Source: Methanothrix harundinacea (lineage in GTDB: Archaea; Halobacteriota; Methanosarcinia; Methanotrichales; Methanotrichaceae). From it: a stretch of DNA of 33,773 bases. The position numbers were made by a program, and so were the translations under genes. The DNA is taken from assembly GCA_001509375.1 (NCBI GenBank), contig LGFT01000015.1, positions 1-33,773 on the forward strand. The letters run 5' to 3'. How positions within the stretch are numbered: position 1 is the stretch's first letter; every line of letters begins with the position of its first letter. The notes below the pieces were generated by a model. That model was given only the letters and a program-made list of their open reading frames with translations, had not been told where the DNA came from and made no database searches. Below are positions 9,133-33,773 of the stretch, one piece after another.

Positions 9133-9241
9133 GGGAATCTATTTCTTGGTCAAGATATGAATATCCTTGTCTCTCGTCTCGACCCGGAAGGTCTGCCGCA
9201 GCTGTCGGCCGCCCGACGGACGCGGAAAAGAGGATCTGAAA

Positions 9242-9661
9242 ATGACGAAAAGAACTCGCGGAGAGGTCCAGCATATAAACCCCGAGGGGCTCTCAAAAAA
9301 TCCAGCCTTCACCCAAGTCGTCATCGTGGCCGGCCCGGCTAAGACGATCTATGTCGGGGGGCAGGATGCCGTCGACGCCTCGGGGAATATAGTCGGAGAG
9401 GGCGACATCGGACGCCAGACGGAACAGGTCTTGAAAAACATCCAGACGGCGCTAGAGGCCTGCGGCGCGGACCTCGGTAACGTCGTCAAGTGGAACGTTT
9501 ACGTGGTCGAAGGCCAGCCCCTCCAGGCGGGCTTCGAGGCGTTCATGAGGGTATGGGGCAGGCAGCCAAACCCGCCAGCGATCACAGCCGCCTTCGTCGC
9601 TGGGCTCGCCCGTCCGGAGTTTCTGGTGGAGATCGACGCCATCGCCGTGGTGATCGAGTAG
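9242..9661 (+). CDS. ridA: RidA (YjgF/YER057c/UK114) family deaminase
   Basis: The 139-residue protein from ATG 9242 (MTKRTRGEVQHINPEGL) has the family features: VGGQDAVDASGNIVGEGD, QTEQVLKNIQTALEACGADL, and a C-terminal ARPEFLVEIDAIAVV containing the signature Arg and Glu. RidA hydrolyses reactive enamine/imine intermediates from PLP enzymes and works as a soluble trimer. The frame is open for 25 more codons upstream, but GAGG lies about 9 nt before ATG 9242 and the extension does not resemble the family. A decayed second copy of its 3' half is at 31758-31905. Confidence 0.94.
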   Translation: MTKRTRGEVQHINPEGLSKNPAFTQVVIVAGPAKTIYVGGQDAVDASGNIVGEGDIGRQTEQVLKNIQTALEACGADLGNVVKWNVYVVEGQPLQAGFEAFMRVWGRQPNPPAITAAFVAGLARPEFLVEIDAIAVVIE

Positions 9662-26961: not shown

Positions 26962-27024
26962 TCAGGTCTTGACGACGCAGGTGCCGCCGATCTTGTTGTG
27001 CCAACTGATCTTAATCGCCATCAT
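26962..27024 (-). CDS. Possible 20-aa microprotein coupled to the zinc-ribbon gene
   Basis: ATG 27024 overlaps the preceding stop as ATGA, like other junctions in this string. The frame holds 20 residues beginning MMAIKISWHNK and ends at TGA 26962-26964. At this length only the coupled start supports it. It would be the last gene of the small-gene string; no family is recognisable. Confidence 0.3.
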   Translation of the reverse strand: MMAIKISWHNKIGGTCVVKT

Positions 27025-27212
27025 CCCCGATGTCTGGCCGATGCAGACCCACTTACACTGTCATCGCCTCGCTGTCTTCGGGTATCATCTTTCAGCGAAG
27101 ATCCGGCGAGCCTTCGGCATCGTGAACATATGCCCCGCCTCACCCCGATTGTATCAATCAACGAAATTTTGCTGCCGCAGCTCCTGCAAATAGGTGGCTC
27201 TTCATCTGTCAT
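27021..27212 (-). CDS. Small zinc-ribbon protein, 63 aa
   Basis: Four cysteines in two pairs, C9-x2-C12 and C29-x2-C32 (CRSCG and CSRCRR), form a zinc-ribbon pattern; the remainder is basic and polar. The ATG at 27212 has a strong GAGGAGG, 7 nt upstream, so translation is likely. The rest of the protein matches no family I know. Such miniproteins often bind nucleic acid or regulators in archaeal viruses and plasmids. Confidence 0.65.
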   Translation of the reverse strand: MTDEEPPICRSCGSKISLIDTIGVRRGICSRCRRLAGSSLKDDTRRQRGDDSVSGSASARHRG

Positions 27213-27224
27213 TTCGTTCCCTCC

Positions 27225-27308
27225 TCATCCCATATCTGCAATCCAATCCTTCCCGAACGTGTGAATTTGCCTGGGACTTGGCACACCCAGGAACCAAAAG
27301 CCGCACAT
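27225..27308 (-). CDS. Possible 27-aa peptide with CxxC-like context
   Basis: ATG 27308 opens a 27-codon frame (MCGFWFLGVPSPRQ...). The frame continues upstream into HRCAMC, giving a CxxC, but no upstream start codon is seen. Its stop overlaps the ribosome-binding region of the next gene. It may be a truncated zinc-ribbon gene rather than a functional one. Confidence 0.25.
   Translation of the reverse strand: MCGFWFLGVPSPRQIHTFGKDWIADMG
27270..27291. repeat. 6-bp inverted repeat CCTGGG/CCCAGG
   Basis: CCTGGG (27270-27275) and CCCAGG (27286-27291) form a perfect stem with a 10-nt loop inside the small-gene string. It could be an RNA hairpin that separates or regulates expression of the last genes. 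Confidence 0.4.
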
Positions 27309-27378
27309 AGCACACCGATGTATGCGACTTAGCTATTCGATCCCGTATTATGCGTCAAGCCACCATCTTTTTCTTGGG

Positions 27379-27459
27379 TCAATCCGTCTCTTCAGTCCTT
27401 GCCACGGCTTTACCGAAAGCCCGTCCTCGTTTCTTTTTCTTGTCTAACTTCGTTCTCAT
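27379..27459 (-). CDS. Basic 26-aa microprotein
   Basis: ATG 27459 overlaps the previous stop as ATGA and has GAGGAGG 7 nt upstream, one of the best ribosome-binding sites in the region. The peptide starts MRTKLDKKKKRGRAFGKAV and is strongly basic, fitting nucleic acid binding. No family is recognised. The combination of strong site and overlap makes translation more likely than its length suggests. Confidence 0.5.
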   Translation of the reverse strand: MRTKLDKKKKRGRAFGKAVARTEETD

Positions 27460-27599
27460 CTAATTTCCTCCTCAGATTCGAATAGGTCACAGTCTTGATA
27501 TCCTTTATCTTCAAGGGTGGCTATGCAAACCACCCCGGAACCATCTAGCCCGCACTCCACGGCGCCGCCCGCGCCCATTATCTCAAATCGACATCGCAT
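27456..27599 (-). CDS. Four-cysteine miniprotein, 47 aa
   Basis: From ATG 27599 the peptide has cysteines at 3, 16, 25 and 37, spaced as if to bind one zinc, with a glycine-rich start (RFEIMGAGGAVECG) and acidic end. Its start lies just after the stop of the 132-aa LIM-like gene, and its stop overlaps the next gene as ATGA. Family unknown. Confidence 0.5.
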   Translation of the reverse strand: MRCRFEIMGAGGAVECGLDGSGVVCIATLEDKGYQDCDLFESEEEIR

Positions 27600-27603
27600 A
27601 TCA

Positions 27604-28002
27604 TCATCGTCCTTCTTTTGGTGTCGCCTTCTCGACCTCTCTTGAGATCTCCTCCAGCTCTCTTATTCGCAAAATAAGCCGCTCAAGCTCCGAGAAAAGG
27701 ATGTCAAATCTGGCATACAGAAAAAACAGCTCCTCTTCGTCGGAGGTCACGGCCTTGCTTCCTTGGAACCGGACCACCTCACCGACCTTTGCGGAGCTTT
27801 GACCGATGATCCTCACACCATCTCCCAAATTAGCGACAGGATCAATAATTGGCAGCGCTGGACCTTCAAGCAAGGACGCTTCAACGCAAGCCACGTGATA
27901 TAAGCTCCTGTGATCGGTTACGTAGACGTCACCAATTTCAATTGGTCTGTAACAAATACCGCAACGGTAGCCCACACATTCCATCCGATGCCCTCGGCTC
28001 AT
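27604..28002 (-). CDS. LIM-like zinc-finger protein with coiled coil, 132 aa
   Basis: Residues 14-39 hold C-x2-C-x18-H-x2-C (CGIC ... YHVAC), the pattern of one half of a LIM domain or a treble clef. The middle (about 55-95) is a small beta domain, and residues 95-127 form a charged helix suited to a coiled coil (FDILFSELERLILRIREL). The first 40 residues are duplicated in the 48-aa gene upstream. The ATG at 28002 overlaps the prior stop as ATGA with GAGGAG just before. Probably a regulator or adaptor; function unknown. Confidence 0.7.
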   Translation of the reverse strand: MSRGHRMECVGYRCGICYRPIEIGDVYVTDHRSLYHVACVEASLLEGPALPIIDPVANLGDGVRIIGQSSAKVGEVVRFQGSKAVTSDEEELFFLYARFDILFSELERLILRIRELEEISREVEKATPKEGR

Positions 28003-28121
28003 CTCCTCGCCCCCACTTTTTCGGAGGCCTTCCCAGGAATCGCTAGGGGCCGTCTTTTGACATTCTTAACCATCCCAGATGCGGTTTGATAGCCCATGGC
28101 ACCGGCTATAATCTGAATCAT
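27999..28121 (-). CDS. Small basic protein, 40 aa
   Basis: ATG 28121 follows GGGGATGAC. The peptide begins MIQIIAGAMGYQTASGMVKN and ends in a basic tail GARR, with its stop overlapping the LIM-like gene's start (ATGA). The tail aligns loosely with the 52-aa protein at 28305-28463 (TGGMSKSQ... to SRR against ASGMVKNV... to ARR), so it is probably the matching, shortened member of the duplicated gene pair. Confidence 0.45.
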   Translation of the reverse strand: MIQIIAGAMGYQTASGMVKNVKRRPLAIPGKASEKVGARR

Positions 28122-28161
28122 GTCATCCCCTACCAACCAGTGACCAATCCACCCACGGGAC

Positions 28162-28308
28162 CTACGGGGACCCAGCCAGTGCCTTCTCAGCACAAGCCGC
28201 GTGATATAAGAGCCCGTGGTCGGTCACGTAGAACTCCCCGCACCTAATGGGATTGCCACATATACCGCAGAGATAGCCTTCGCAATCCATCTGATACCTC
28301 CGGCTCAT
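28162..28308 (-). CDS. LIM-like zinc-finger miniprotein, 48 aa
   Basis: The peptide keeps C14-x2-C17 and H36-x2-C39 exactly as in the 132-aa paralogue downstream (CGIC ... YHAAC) and then stops after nine residues (EKALAGSP). It is therefore only the zinc finger, without the beta domain and coiled coil. The ATG at 28308 overlaps the previous stop as ATGA and has GAGGAG adjacent. It may be a truncated paralogue or a natural short form. Confidence 0.6.
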   Translation of the reverse strand: MSRRYQMDCEGYLCGICGNPIRCGEFYVTDHGLLYHAACAEKALAGSP

Positions 28309-28463
28309 CTCCTCGACCTCTTCTTCCACCGCTTACCCTCATAGGCTAACAGTACCGCAGCCTGGCTCTTCGACATACCGCCGGTAACTTCTAAGACCTC
28401 GGCGGATGCCTGCAAAGTTTTTTTAGCTACCTCTGTTTGGTGTTCCCTAAACACGTCTTTCAT
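28305..28463 (-). CDS. Small basic helical protein, 52 aa
   Basis: From ATG 28463, with GGAGG 7 nt upstream, the peptide reads MKDVFREHQTEVAKKTLQAS, then a helix-forming stretch, and ends KRWKKRSRR. It is strongly basic at the C-terminus and probably binds nucleic acid. Its stop overlaps the zinc-finger gene's start. No family recognised. Confidence 0.6.
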   Translation of the reverse strand: MKDVFREHQTEVAKKTLQASAEVLEVTGGMSKSQAAVLLAYEGKRWKKRSRR

Positions 28464-28541
28464 CTCATCGCCTCCAGATAGTGATTCTTATCTATGCGTT
28501 GCCTCGTCCCAGCGTTGCTCAGCAGAACCGTGTCCTGTTGT

Positions 28542-28655
28542 TCATCGCCACCACCCCGCCACGGAGAGCACAAACGTCGCCAGAACCAAAACTGCTAGCG
28601 CCAATGCAACTAAGCCATAGTCGGAGAGACCATAAAGAAGCCCCCTATCACTCAT
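28542..28655 (-). CDS. Single-pass membrane microprotein, 37 aa
   Basis: ATG 28655 has GGAGGAGG 7 nt upstream and overlaps the previous stop as ATGA. The peptide has a short polar start (MSDRGLLYGLSD), one hydrophobic span (YGLVALALAVLVLATFVLSV) and an end at GWWR. This is a classic small membrane protein. Its own stop overlaps another ATG that opens only eight codons. Candidates are a holin-like, regulatory or toxin peptide, all inference. Confidence 0.6.
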   Translation of the reverse strand: MSDRGLLYGLSDYGLVALALAVLVLATFVLSVAGWWR

Positions 28656-28924
28656 CGATCTGCCTCCTCCGAGGGGTTTTTCCCCAAATCGCCTCGGATC
28701 TCGTCTTCGTCATCCTCTTGGCAGAAACTCGGATTCAACCGTATAGAGAATTTGATTCCACAGGCGGCACATTTGCCGTCGCCTTCGCCCGTCGTGTCGT
28801 CATAGTAATACCAGTTGATCTTGTGATTCGCTCCGAACCTTTTGGAGTGCAAATTCTCGATTTGTGCGGCCACTTTCTCCATCATTTCGGACTTTGTGCT
28901 GTTTGGATTCAACTCCAATGCCAA
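28652..28924 (-). CDS. Small protein with CxxC motif, up to 90 aa
   Basis: The protein has a helical N-terminal half (MMEKVAAQIENLHSKRFG), then INWYYYDDTTGEGDGKCAAC and a later cysteine (NPSFC), suggesting a zinc ribbon, and an acidic tail. The start is uncertain: TTG 28924 gives 90 residues without a good ribosome-binding site; ATG 28885 or 28882 gives 76-77. The stop overlaps the membrane microprotein's ATG. Family unknown. Confidence 0.55.
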   Translation of the reverse strand: MALELNPNSTKSEMMEKVAAQIENLHSKRFGANHKINWYYYDDTTGEGDGKCAACGIKFSIRLNPSFCQEDDEDEIRGDLGKNPSEEADR

Positions 28925-28939
28925 TTATACGCGCCCCAC

Positions 28940-29260
28940 TCAATATGACGAATCGCACAGCTGCAGGCCATCGTCCTGGAAGATTTTCTTTAGTTCCGAT
29001 TCCGTAAATGTCACGATTTCAGCCAGCCAGAGGAACGGGTCGCCTTGCTTCTCGCCGCCGTGGTTGTGTATCGATTGTAACCGAAGGGTTTTCGTTTGAT
29101 TTAGCCAGGTCATCTCAATTCGTTCCGCAAGTCGTTCAGGGTGGCGACACTTTGAAACATCGATGATGTCTCCGCGTATCGCTGGTGTTATCAAGCCCGA
29201 GTCGGCCCGTTTGTCTAGGTACGATTCTGTCAGTTCCCAGTAACCTTCGATTTTCGTCAT
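28940..29260 (-). CDS. Hypothetical protein, 106 aa
   Basis: ATG 29260 has GAGGAG and a second GGAG upstream. The protein starts MTKIEGYWELTESYLDKRAD, has HNHGGEKQGDPFLWLAEIVT in the middle and is soluble throughout. No recognisable family. The frame is open a further 22 codons upstream (to 29326), but that part overlaps the preceding gene and lacks a ribosome-binding site. Confidence 0.6.
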   Translation of the reverse strand: MTKIEGYWELTESYLDKRADSGLITPAIRGDIIDVSKCRHPERLAERIEMTWLNQTKTLRLQSIHNHGGEKQGDPFLWLAEIVTFTESELKKIFQDDGLQLCDSSY

Positions 29261-29522
29261 CTCCACATCTCCTCGACCCTCGTCCCCGCCTCCTGACCAC
29301 TCGGAGTTCATGGAGGCTTTCCCCAAGCCCCCAGACTACGATATCAGCCCTCAGATCCCTGATTCTGGCAAGGGTTTGGTTCAGCTCTAGAAACAATTCG
29401 TCGGCCCGTTCCTCCAGCTGTGGGAGCTTCATGGTTCCAACTTCTGGCTTGTTAATCCAGAGTGAAGTGCCACAGTGGGGGCAGGTCAGCCTATCGGTCT
29501 CTCCTCTCTCAAATGATCCCAT
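29136..29522 (-). CDS. Zinc-ribbon/coiled-coil protein with read-through tail
   Basis: From ATG 29522 (GAGG about 10 nt upstream) the protein begins with a CxxC knuckle (RLTCPHCGTSLWINKPEVG) followed by a helical segment (LEERADELFLELNQTLARIR). At codon 86 the recurring junction TCGAGGAGATGA reads TCGAGGAGATGT, so a stop seems to have become Cys and the frame runs on 42 codons through the next gene. The natural protein probably ended near residue 85. It is the first gene of the minus-strand small-gene string. Confidence 0.55.
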   Translation of the reverse strand: MGSFERGETDRLTCPHCGTSLWINKPEVGTMKLPQLEERADELFLELNQTLARIRDLRADIVVWGLGESLHELRVVRRRGRGSRRCGDDENRRLLGTDRIVPRQTGRLGLDNTSDTRRHHRCFKVSPP

Positions 29523-30067
29523 CTCTACACTTCCTCAGCACTCATCATCAGCTTAAAGCTTAGAAGCCGCCACGCCGAATTCTCCAGCCCCAAAGGATCT
29601 GCCTGAGAGCCAAAAGGGTAGGATTGGTCGTTCTATAACCTATCCGGTCCCACGTTTACCGGACCTCAGAAATCAGGGTGGTGTTTTGGGCATGACACGA
29701 GCCCCGTGGAGGCTATCGGCCGCAGGTCCAGGTGCAGTAAGCCGGTCCAGCTCCCTAAGGATAGCTGTCTGCTGGTCGCAAGATCGACGTCGTCAAGGCT
29801 ATTTTTCGACGTCGCCGCTGCTCGCCGAACCTCCACAAAGAAAAGCGTTTTTCACCGCCCGCCCCCCCCCTCAAACTTTTGGAGATTTAAAATAGTCTCG
29901 GCATTTGCCCCGTGGAGTAGACGCAGTCGGCTACCACTAAATGCGATTCCCATGCTCATTTCAGCTCACCGATACTACATGAGGATTCTAGTTATATAAC
30001 ATTATCGACGATAACTTTTAAGGACTTCAAGTAATCAATAAAAACTTGTATAACCGAGGCGATTCGC
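29523..30067. other. Gene-poor stretch of 545 bp
   Basis: I find no ORF with a ribosome-binding site or protein-like composition. Visible: a TCCGGT/ACCGGA inverted repeat at 29643-29663, a tract of cytosines near 29860-29875, and an AT-rich tail from about 29990 (GTTATATAACATTATC) that probably contains the promoter of the AbrB gene. It may be decayed element DNA. Confidence 0.4.
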
Positions 30068-30232
30068 ATGAGAGAGTACACGACCGTAGGACGAGTTTTT
30101 AGTGGCGGAAAAGTAACCATCCCAAAATCGATACGTGACGCTATGAGACTAAGGGACGGTGATCTTGTGGAGATCACTATCCGGATCGTGGAAGAAGATA
30201 AAGACAGGGAGACAGCTAAGCCTCCCGTCTAA
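30068..30232 (+). CDS. AbrB/MazE-type swapped-hairpin DNA-binding protein, 54 aa
   Basis: The peptide follows the AbrB pattern: MREYTTVGRVFSGGKVTIPK then IRDAMRLRDGDLVEITIRI, containing the GxVTIPKxIR and LxxGDxVEI signatures. GAGG lies about 8 nt before ATG 30068. Such domains dimerise through swapped hairpins and serve as transition regulators or antitoxins. No toxin gene adjoins. It is flanked downstream by the palindrome AATGTCGACATT (30231-30242) and the inverted repeat at 30260-30278, which could be its operators. Confidence 0.85.
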   Translation: MREYTTVGRVFSGGKVTIPKSIRDAMRLRDGDLVEITIRIVEEDKDRETAKPPV

Positions 30233-30259
30233 TGTCGACATTTAGCGGTGAACTGAAAT

Positions 30260-30278
30260 GTCAAATACCACATTTGAC
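30260..30278. promoter_or_regulatory. Inverted repeat GTCAAAT-N5-ATTTGAC
   Basis: GTCAAAT (30260-30266) and ATTTGAC (30272-30278) form a perfect 7-bp inverted repeat 28 bp after the AbrB stop. A CGAAAGTTATATC element (minus strand, 30288-30300) lies beside it. It may be an operator at a promoter or a terminator hairpin. Confidence 0.45.
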
Positions 30279-30349
30279 GTTATCAAAGATATAACTTTCG
30301 GCGTCTCAAAGGTGATATCATAGCTCTTCGACCGCATCATCGTTTCAAT

Positions 30350-30457
30350 TCAGATGATACGTCCAATATCAAATCCTTCATAACTATTCCACTGGTGATT
30401 GATGTCAGCCTTCAGGTATATCGAGGTCGTCAGATCGGTATGACCGAGCTGAGGCAT
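30350..30457 (-). pseudogene. Remnant of a tyrosine recombinase/integrase (C-terminal catalytic end)
   Basis: The minus-strand frame from 30457 to the TGA at 30350 reads MPQLGHTDLTTSIYLKADIN, matching the LGHxxxxTxxYL box of XerC/D-type integrases, including the third catalytic His and the nucleophilic Tyr. Continuing upstream the same frame gives RRTAS and then a TAG stop, and no N-terminal or core-binding domain is found. It is a dead fragment and marks a past integrative element here. Confidence 0.65.
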
Positions 30458-31601: not shown

Positions 31602-31669
31602 CTTTTCCTCCTGGTACAAATAACCCGCACCGCCTCAAAACGTCCCGGTTTTCATCATCCGTGCGGAAA

Positions 31670-31757
31670 TCCTTCCTCGCAAAACTCGTTCGGGCAGCAG
31701 GTCAGGATCGTATCCGCCCCGGCCCGCTTGATCGACGTCAGCTATATCCAGCATCGC
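31670..31757 (-). pseudogene. Decayed fragment of the hemB 3' end
   Basis: This segment aligns with the true hemB end at 33684-33769. Over 31670-31742 there are 10 mismatches and one indel in 73 positions. The frame reads LTSIKRAGADTILT, where hemB has LTSIKRAGADMILT, then degenerates to CCPNEFCEEGF in place of YYAKEYARKE. There is no gene upstream of it to complete it. Confidence 0.8.
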
Positions 31758-31905
31758 TTTTTTGTCGTCGCCGGACAGCCCCTCCAGCCAGCCTTCGAGG
31801 GCCTTCCAGCGGGCCTGGGGCCAGCGTCCCGACCCACCGGCGATCACCGTCGCCATTGTCACCGGGCTCGCGCGCCCGGAGTTCCTGGTGGAGATCGAAT
31901 TATAG
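31758..31905 (+). pseudogene. Decayed, frameshifted ridA 3' fragment
   Basis: The plus strand reads FFVVAGQPLQPAFEGL in one frame, then in the +1 frame RAWGQRPDPPAITVAIVTGLARPEFLVEIEL and a TAG at 31903-31905. This parallels the C-terminal half of the intact RidA at 9242-9661 (VVEGQPLQAGFEAF and ARPEFLVEID). The 5' half is missing and one frameshift is present, so it is not functional. Confidence 0.8.
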
Positions 31906-32076
31906 TGAGATAATATGGCCTAGAATTCTATATAACTACTGCTTTAAAATTTCGATAGATTTTTAAGAGAATACATGGTAGGATCAATTGGCTTAAATCA
32001 TTCAACCTTACATCATAGCGGTCCTGATATCACTAATACTTGAAAGTGAGCATAAAAGAACAAATTGGAGGTTCCT

Positions 32077-32970
32077 TTGACGAATAACCCAACATTAAAA
32101 TTTGCCGTCGAAGCACTACTTAATAAGGCAAATTCCAGGGGAGACGCGGTCTTAGGAGCAACTGCCTTTAACAAGATGGTCTTCCTACTTTATAAAAGAT
32201 TGAAACGGAAGGGAAAACAATTAGACCTCAGATTGCCTTACTGTTGGTATTTATGGGGGCCATTTATAGCACACGCCGAATTTGAACACGAAGTAGGGGT
32301 TCCACTTGATTATTATGTTCCGAAGGGTGAGCATACTCGTGTAATCGATAATGTATCTGACGTAGAAATTCCTATCGCAGAGAAAAGATTAATAGAAAAA
32401 GAGATAGATAAAATGCTTGCCGAGTTTGATAATAATGGAATTATTAACCTAGATCTTTTGCTCAACCGCGCGTATGAACTTGCCCCATATGAGTTTCAGA
32501 AGGTGTTTAATCGAAGTTTCAGGCCTGAATTAAACAAGCTAAGGTCGTACTCGGTATCAAAAGAGGAGATTGAAGCTTACTTGGATAGACTTCTAGAGAC
32601 GTATCCAGAAAAAGAGATGGAAGAATTGTATGACGTTTTTCTTGAGTGGGATGATACATTTCGGCTTGCTCTCGAAAACGATACATCTCGCACATACGTT
32701 CTTGCAGAAGAATTCTGGGGAGTTTTTTGTAAACTATTACGAGTAAAGCAGCGTTATGGCGTCTCTAGAGATACGATTATCAATTGGTCGTTCAGCTTTA
32801 AAGAAAGTCTCCATCAATACGAAAACAAGCTCGAAAATGAACGAAATGATCTGCTGGGAATCCACTTTGAGAAAGAACAAACTGATGTGAAGGTCCAAAG
32901 GATCGTCGGTGATGTTATGGAGTTATCTCATAAAATTGCAATAGAATATAAACCGGTGAAGGAGGTCTGA
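32077..32970 (+). CDS. Possible antitoxin-like protein (Panacea/DUF4065-like outline), 297 aa
   Basis: The start is TTG 32077, placed 5 nt after GGAGG; an upstream TTG at 32065 overlaps that site. The N-terminal region includes AFNKMVFLLYKRLKRKG then LPYCWYLWGPFIAHAEFEHE, resembling in outline the (K)-hydrophobic-W-x-GP pattern of Panacea (DUF4065) antitoxin-associated domains. A long helical C-terminus follows (EKEMEELYDVFLEWDDTFR and so on). The gene is AT-rich, unlike the surrounding genome, and 4 bp separate it from a PIN nuclease. The family assignment is tentative; the pairing with PIN suggests toxin-antitoxin or defence. Confidence 0.6.
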   Translation: MTNNPTLKFAVEALLNKANSRGDAVLGATAFNKMVFLLYKRLKRKGKQLDLRLPYCWYLWGPFIAHAEFEHEVGVPLDYYVPKGEHTRVIDNVSDVEIPIAEKRLIEKEIDKMLAEFDNNGIINLDLLLNRAYELAPYEFQKVFNRSFRPELNKLRSYSVSKEEIEAYLDRLLETYPEKEMEELYDVFLEWDDTFRLALENDTSRTYVLAEEFWGVFCKLLRVKQRYGVSRDTIINWSFSFKESLHQYENKLENERNDLLGIHFEKEQTDVKVQRIVGDVMELSHKIAIEYKPVKEV

Positions 32971-32974
32971 CAAA

Positions 32975-33628
32975 CTGCCATACTTCCTGGATTCTAATGT
33001 ATTAATCGGATATGTATTTAGAAAGGCAGACATCTGGGGCGACCCTGCAAACGTAGTAGTTGAAGATGATGAGGAAAATAATTCAAGTACAGTTGTTTGG
33101 GGCGAATGCTTTGGCTCTTCAGAAGGTGGTAGATGCAACACTATACAAAAAAAGATAAGTCGGGAATTTAGGAGAGCAATCGCAAAATTAAATAGTGGAT
33201 TATCAAATGAAGAACTTTTAATGTTTGCTCGCGGTGAAAATTGGAGAATTTTGGGTATTCTTAAGAGTATATTTGATGAGCACAAAGGATATTCATCAGT
33301 GATATTAATCAAATTACTTAGAGATGTTCAACGAAGATACGATAAGGAATACATAGATAGATTCAACAAGCTTAAGGAAATTGTGACGATTCATAACAGA
33401 GAAAAACCATATTTAGAGATTCGCAAGCTCCTAGAAGAATTTATTGAAGATTGGGATGATATTCAGATTATTCTTGATGCGCATTATGTAGGAAACTTAA
33501 GTAAAAATATAATATTAATTACAGGAGATTACAATCATATAGTGCCGAACAAAAAACTTATTTGTACGCACACATCATTGGTAGATGTAAAAGGTCTAGG
33601 CGATTATAGGGCTAAGTCTATAATATAA
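32975..33628 (+). CDS. PIN-domain nuclease, probable CTG start, 217 aa
   Basis: PIN acidic residues are all present: Asp6 in YFLDSNVLIGYVF, Glu44 in VVWGECFG, Asp168 in IILDAHYVGN and Asp185 in LITGDYNHIV. These bind metal and cut RNA in VapC-type toxins; at 217 residues this one is longer, with a helical insert (about 60-165). ATG 33221 would delete Asp6 and Glu44. GGAGGT at 32961-32966 lies 8 nt before CTG 32975, the only codon in a sensible position, so a CTG start is likely. Low GC marks it as acquired DNA along with its partner. Confidence 0.75.
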   Translation: MPYFLDSNVLIGYVFRKADIWGDPANVVVEDDEENNSSTVVWGECFGSSEGGRCNTIQKKISREFRRAIAKLNSGLSNEELLMFARGENWRILGILKSIFDEHKGYSSVILIKLLRDVQRRYDKEYIDRFNKLKEIVTIHNREKPYLEIRKLLEEFIEDWDDIQIILDAHYVGNLSKNIILITGDYNHIVPNKKLICTHTSLVDVKGLGDYRAKSII

Positions 33629-33667
33629 TAAAAATAGTTTGTATTACATCCTGCCAGTGTTATTCAG

Positions 33668-33773
33668 TCAAACGCCTTCCCGCTCCTTCCTCGCATACTC
33701 CTTCGCGTAGTACGTCAGGATCATGTCCGCCCCGGCCCGCTTGATGGAGGTCAGCGCCTCGCGCATCGCCCGC
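33668..33773 (-). CDS. hemB: Porphobilinogen synthase, C-terminal end only
   Basis: The window ends within this gene. The visible 34 residues read AMREALTSIKRAGADMILTY and then YAKEYARKEREGV before TGA at 33668-33670, the typical HemB C-terminus (EALTSIKRAGADxILTYYA). HemB condenses two 5-aminolevulinates to porphobilinogen, feeding haem, cobamide and F430 synthesis in methanogens. A decayed copy of this end lies at 31670-31757. Confidence 0.88.
   Translation of the reverse strand, partial: RAMREALTSIKRAGADMILTYYAKEYARKEREGV

Follow-up and report, generated by a model that had tools for sequence, protein, structure and literature searches.

Among the closest described counterparts of the locus considered here is the control region of pSSVx, where the AbrB-like protein C68 is encoded opposite to the element's other eight small genes and binds the region between the divergent promoters, its effect there not being established (PMC5569661). 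A second point of comparison is the Brz type of CPxCG zinc finger protein; such proteins are very small, carry Cys/His pairs, are in some cases regulatory and are often unannotated (PMC2253796). The present locus is an array of small open reading frames (ORFs) on the minus strand at 26962-29522, together with a divergent AbrB-family gene. The window is the whole of contig C23 (33,773 bases), from a genome of 2.38 Mb in 118 contigs, and the genus of these genomes is Methanocrinis (PMC10598746). The reading that we favor, at somewhat better than even confidence, is an accessory operon of micro-proteins, repressed by AbrB and translated in a coupled way, that is exchanged within Methanocrinis and is of mobile origin. 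The genome of the window is labeled G000, and two of the congeners compared are G006 (LUYE01000012.1) and G007 (Candidatus Methanocrinis natronophilus Mx). A third, G001, is taken to be M. harundinaceus 6Ac.

The locus resembles the pSSVx control region in that a single-domain AbrB-like gene lies opposite a run of small genes and shares an intergenic region with it (PMC5569661). It differs in that the cassette is chromosomal and euryarchaeal, has no replication or structural genes and yielded no array-gene homology. The C68 motif TATG(C/GG)TTTTC, searched as TATGSTTTTC with at most one mismatch, was not found in 29523-30067 (a search that did not cover the GGTTTTC form on its own), and the likeness to pSSVx is therefore one of layout, not of membership.

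The array was found to hold about a dozen small ORFs with Shine-Dalgarno (SD) sites and ATGA overlaps, the 4-nucleotide (nt) overlaps being located at g3/g4, g6/g7, g8/g9 and g10/g11. With the count restricted to ORFs of 20 or more codons that begin with ATG behind a strong SD, seven were obtained in 26962-29522, compared to 1.9 ± 1.3 in 1000 dinucleotide-preserving shuffles, none of which reached seven; no other segment of the window gave more than four. The cysteine motifs were present as the sequence-only reading had given them, with C-x2-C-x18-H-x2-C in g7 and g9, C-x2-C-x16-C-x2-C in g13 and a single CxxC in each of g1 and g3. Since the SD-led ORFs exceed the shuffles and the cysteine motifs are present, the ORF string is deemed to be real and to lie at the place first proposed. 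No RNA gene was detected, as judged by Rfam families at the gathering score and by a tRNA search.

Homology to other genomes spans 27648-30307, so that the homologous unit reaches outside the 26962-29522 originally delimited, past 29522 to the AbrB gene. This conserved unit consists of the divergent AbrB gene, the intergenic region, g1, a damaged g2, g3, g6, g7 and g9b. A check for homologues and synteny in relatives had been proposed, and the unit was indeed recovered in four of the nine genomes of the genus: the g7 zinc peptide, g3 and AbrB are present in all four, and the order of AbrB and divergent array is the same in G001, G006 and G007. Neither the zinc peptide nor AbrB was found in the other relatives searched (150 genomes), while g1 is present in three of the four carriers and was not found outside the genus (200 relatives searched). 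A g7 profile run against 394 genomes of the phylum gave marginal additional matches only; the distant ones (E 0.006-0.009), several of them interrupted by stops, were taken as chance. Selection maintains about five genes of the unit, even as the block as a whole appears, disappears and changes place from one genome to another.

The AbrB-family DNA-binding protein (30068-30232, plus strand, 54 amino acids [aa]) exceeded the curated cut-offs of both PF04014 (26.5 versus 24.7 bits) and TIGR01439 (33.1 versus 28.3 bits), matched the AbrB-family regulator structures 5itm, 5itj and 2l66, and is 91-94% identical in G001, G006 and G007. Of the remaining conserved array products that were tested, none passed a Pfam or NCBIfam cut-off. 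Located 3' of the AbrB gene, at 30233-30307, is a second GGTGAACTGAAATG start (MSxTTFDVxKD...) that is kept in all four cassettes (the window, L010, L011 and L012); the ORF from this start diverges past about 20 codons.

The first conserved gene of the array, g1 (29277-29522, minus strand), encodes a helical peptide with one CPHCG and is 72-76% identical in relatives, where it has 82 codons and a stop aligned at 29277. In the window this stop is lost and the ORF continues to 29136, giving a 128-aa ORF (29522-29136) whose extra part is out-of-frame g2. The g2 ORF itself (28940-29260, minus strand, 106 aa) is truncated or interrupted in relatives. The next gene, g3 (28652-28924, minus strand), starts with TTG, carries one CAACG and is 69-75% identical over 72 aa. 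It was modeled by AlphaFold as a helix and three strands with a confidence score (pLDDT, predicted local distance difference test) of about 88-96 for residues 11-60, and no match to this fold was found in the PDB at E < 0.001. A basic peptide of 52 aa, g6 (28305-28463, minus strand), overlaps g7 and is kept in G001, G007 and G006 and partly on contig C26.

The central family is that of g7 (28162-28308, minus strand), a putative zinc peptide of which six copies were found in the four genomes; 25 residues, the four putative ligands among them, are invariant. A second copy forms the first part of g9 (27604-28002, minus strand, 132 aa), where the alignment shows it joined in frame with the coiled-coil gene g9b; the zinc part of g9 is a 73% DNA repeat of g7. 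In the other four copies g9b stands alone, preceded by an SD and starting at an ATG of its own. A KOW-like domain in the middle of g9 was considered and rejected because this stretch aligns with intergenic spacer in the other copies and is poorly modeled. Matches of g7 to Pizza designer propellers in the PDB were likewise discarded as an artefact driven by an 11-residue repeat.

A partial, damaged second copy of the cassette is present in G000 on contig C26, near an argH-like gene. Upstream of this copy, an ORF at L061 1377-1601 contains CPYCGC...YRSMACR and resembles a transposase fragment, with no family match. A 61-aa SD-led ORF (MKFEEDNMKRFVFIGDQYRGM...) follows at L061 1671-1856.

Selection on the frames was assessed by the Nei-Gojobori ratio of nonsynonymous to synonymous divergence (dN/dS), with trmJ (0.20-0.24) as the yardstick. 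AbrB gave a ratio of 0.04 and most g7 pairs one of 0.1-0.3; the values were 0.13-0.37 for g3, 0.25-0.58 for g6 and, when compared to the window copy, 0.26-0.37 for g1. A clear excess of changes at the third codon position was observed for AbrB (p to 3e-7) and for g7 (p to 2e-4), the p-values of different pairs not being independent. The sequence-only reading had held that conserved frames under purifying selection would support it; such selection was evident for AbrB and for the CxxC...HxxC peptide and was apparent but weaker for g1, g3, g6 and the coiled-coil gene. A real, selected cassette is therefore deduced to exist.

The claim that many of the genes encode zinc-binding miniproteins was found to be overstated. 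One conserved family carries a complete four-ligand site, the two other conserved cysteine peptides have one CxxC each, and the sole classical CPxCG-type protein, g13, is not conserved. By inspection, the Brz-type definition (less than 100 aa, two Cys/His pairs 7-40 residues apart and at least one CPxCG, CPxCx or CxxCG; PMC2253796) applies only to g13, since g7 and g9 (CGICY...HATC) lack a CPxCG-like half and g1 and g3 lack a second pair. The g7/g9 peptides are instead similar to the treble clefs of LIM, RING and DUF2175 in having a CxxC, a beta hairpin and an HxxC at the start of a helix, and their model shows this hairpin-then-helix order. They differ in having a single zinc site in 48-59 aa, no significant domain match (the best, insignificant, were LIM, RING, DUF2175 and PHD fingers) and a low model confidence (pLDDT of about 64-69 in the zinc part).

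A candidate operator/promoter, TTATCnnnGATAATGTTATATAAC, was located at 29991-30014 (minus strand) between AbrB and the array. It consists of two palindromes, the second of which includes a TATA-like box 32-41 nt ahead of the first SD-led ATG. Its sequence is identical in the window, G006 and G007 and differs by a single change in G001, and its core 16-mer occurs once in the window, compared to an expected 0. A possible leading ORF, g0 (29852-29959, minus strand), has a GGTGA SD and a start region common to all four cassettes; it showed no third-position excess, and its coding is not supported.

From this arrangement a mechanism can be proposed. An AbrB dimer would bind the palindromic TATA region between the divergent promoters and repress both the array and itself, and upon derepression a single transcript would be made from which the overlapping ORFs would be translated in a coupled manner. 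The treble-clef-like peptide, together with its small partners (helical or basic), may then serve as an adaptor on a host protein or nucleic acid; for the zinc peptide, our best guess by analogy is an adaptor role on transcription or translation. The block itself is not fixed: it has undergone insertion, loss, duplication and decay and, apparently, exchange between species, and so behaves as a module of mobile origin retained above all for AbrB and the zinc peptide.

The comparison of insertion sites bears on this last step. A GyrI-like gene and a methyltransferase (ICMT) gene flank the cassette in G001 (about 190.3-192.2 kb of contig C2), G006 and G007, a site that differs from that in G000. 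The same junction is empty, at about 51-64 nt, in G002, G004 and contig C1 of G000, and it holds other genes in G003 and G008. G007 has the cassette, whereas its close relative G003 does not, the synonymous divergence (dS) between them being 0.05-0.06 for ICMT and GyrI (0.05-0.12 for flank and core genes). In a tree of the trmJ locus the carriers fall in three separate places. For G001 and G007, the dS of the cassette was 0.24 (AbrB, g7), compared to 0.61 for trmJ, 0.41 for ICMT and 0.39 for GyrI; this low value suggests exchange within the genus. The patchy, moving distribution points to a mobile origin.

The GyrI-ICMT junction is in general variable in the genus: it may be empty, hold the cassette, hold a gene for a secreted protein or hold other genes spanning several kb. 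In G000 a complete ICMT gene is accompanied by a 3' fragment of 68 residues beside the GyrI-like gene (C1:12810-13013 and C90:7398-8000), a trace of local rearrangement.

Several observations weigh against the reading of an exchanged, AbrB-repressed operon. AbrB proteins are not always repressors, and the AbrB site described here is a candidate only. The dN/dS of g1 was 1.9 for G001 versus G006, the G001 peptide has lost a cysteine that is a zinc ligand, and G007 has lost g1 and part of g3, so that most of the array must be regarded as dispensable. The third-position signal was weak for g1, g3, g6 and g9b. Because AbrB and g7 are short, the dS signal of exchange rests on few sites, and because the window block coincides with a larger rearrangement, its self-mobility is only a candidate property.

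The broken and fused genes found in all copies, together with the patchy distribution, could also be explained if an archaeal virus or plasmid had integrated and then decayed until only its early-control region (AbrB and small genes) was left; AbrB and the zinc peptide would in that case be under temporary constraint or have been acquired recently. The divergent AbrB-plus-small-genes layout of pSSVx (PMC5569661) is in keeping with such an origin, as is the guanine-plus-cytosine (GC) content of the array region (0.50-0.55), which is below that of the left-hand core genes. We nevertheless consider this explanation unlikely. No integrase, capsid or other hallmark virus or plasmid gene, tRNA or attachment (att) site was seen, and the array proteins gave no significant PHROG match. 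No relatives were found in the IMG/VR, phage and plasmid collections, the IMG/VR scans, made with short peptide seeds, excluding close relatives only. Furthermore, the constraint on AbrB and g7 is comparable to or above that on the housekeeping gene. Of the two interpretations offered by the sequence-only reading, the domesticated regulatory cassette consequently fits better than the early region of an unknown element.

A mobile element that is non-autonomous, relying on a transposase or recombinase that acts in trans and carrying the small genes as cargo, would account for the different sites in G000 and in G001, G006 and G007 and for the empty sites. It would also accommodate an inverted 39-nt match, 85% identical, between the AbrB end in the window (30351-30389, beyond AbrB) and the g9b end on C26 (L061 2467-2505, beyond g9b), which is inverted relative to the array. 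The 22-nt core of this match has no further occurrence in the genome at up to three mismatches, and a circular or tandem element behind it was rejected as the orientation is wrong. No terminal repeat or target duplication was found in the G001, G006 and G007 copies, and in the window the site coincides with a larger rearrangement. This explanation is judged improbable. The AbrB/MazE domain, being of antitoxin type, also raises a toxin-antitoxin locus with AbrB as the antitoxin, but AbrB is followed only by a 21-codon ORF with a conserved start and no toxin gene, and the array proteins gave no PADLOC family match with a credible score; the chance of this being correct is considered very small.

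The array as first described was counted as about thirteen genes, and this number could not be upheld, since it includes the 128-aa run-on ORF, the non-conserved g2, g4, g8 and g10-g13, and a gene remnant. The 37-aa hydrophobic, membrane-like g4 (28542-28655, minus strand) overlaps g3 and is found in the window only. The 40-aa g8 (27999-28121, minus strand) corresponds in DNA to the g7-g9b spacer of relatives, and its coding is doubtful. The small ORFs g10-g13 (27021-27599, minus strand; g13 at 27212-27021) are specific to the window. No homologue of g4, g8 or g10-g12 was found in the homologous cassettes, and the sole g13 match among 100 relatives, in G026, was rejected as it is antisense to a rhodanese-like gene.

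The remnant is g14 (26962-27045, minus strand), the 3' part of an RDD-family gene and not a cassette gene. The last ORF (27024-26962; MMAIKISWHNKIGGTCVVKT) aligns with two separated pieces of this gene, which in the congeners compared lies downstream of and convergent to trmJ (PF06271 in G001, E 4e-22) and in the window lacks its 5' part and an internal stretch. The array is therefore deduced to end at a rearrangement border near 27045. A simple insertion into the RDD gene was rejected because the RDD2-LSm-DUF166 block of this genome sits on contig C103, beside other neighbors and with a different gene after it, which indicates a larger rearrangement rather than a clean insertion.

Elsewhere in the window, 32000-33773 is AT-rich (GC 0.34-0.39 compared to about 0.6 at the left) and the contig ends inside it; its 301-aa and 135-aa ORFs matched no Pfam family. 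Fragments in several frames at 31635-31905 (LARPEFLVEI) are similar to the RidA-like protein at 9167-9661 and apparently represent a pseudogene.

Overall, the micro-protein operon looks like a real, partly selected, genus-restricted accessory module that is neither random nor a recognizable virus. There is a slim chance that it is more than this: a self-contained mobile module, characterized by its AbrB switch and a new family of treble-clef micro-proteins, which would move from one chromosomal site to another and either reprogram host expression or provide defense against other elements. Minimal archaeal genomic islands of this sort would form a new class. For the annotation of such loci, the lesson is that a real coupled array can hold pseudogene remnants and orphan ORFs, so that comparative tests should precede any counting of small genes. 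The finding also provides an archaeal micro-protein operon that is under selection and present in several genomes; with the exception of AbrB, its families had no match in any of the domain libraries and collections searched, and within the genus the isolate M. harundinaceus 6Ac allows its expression to be tested.

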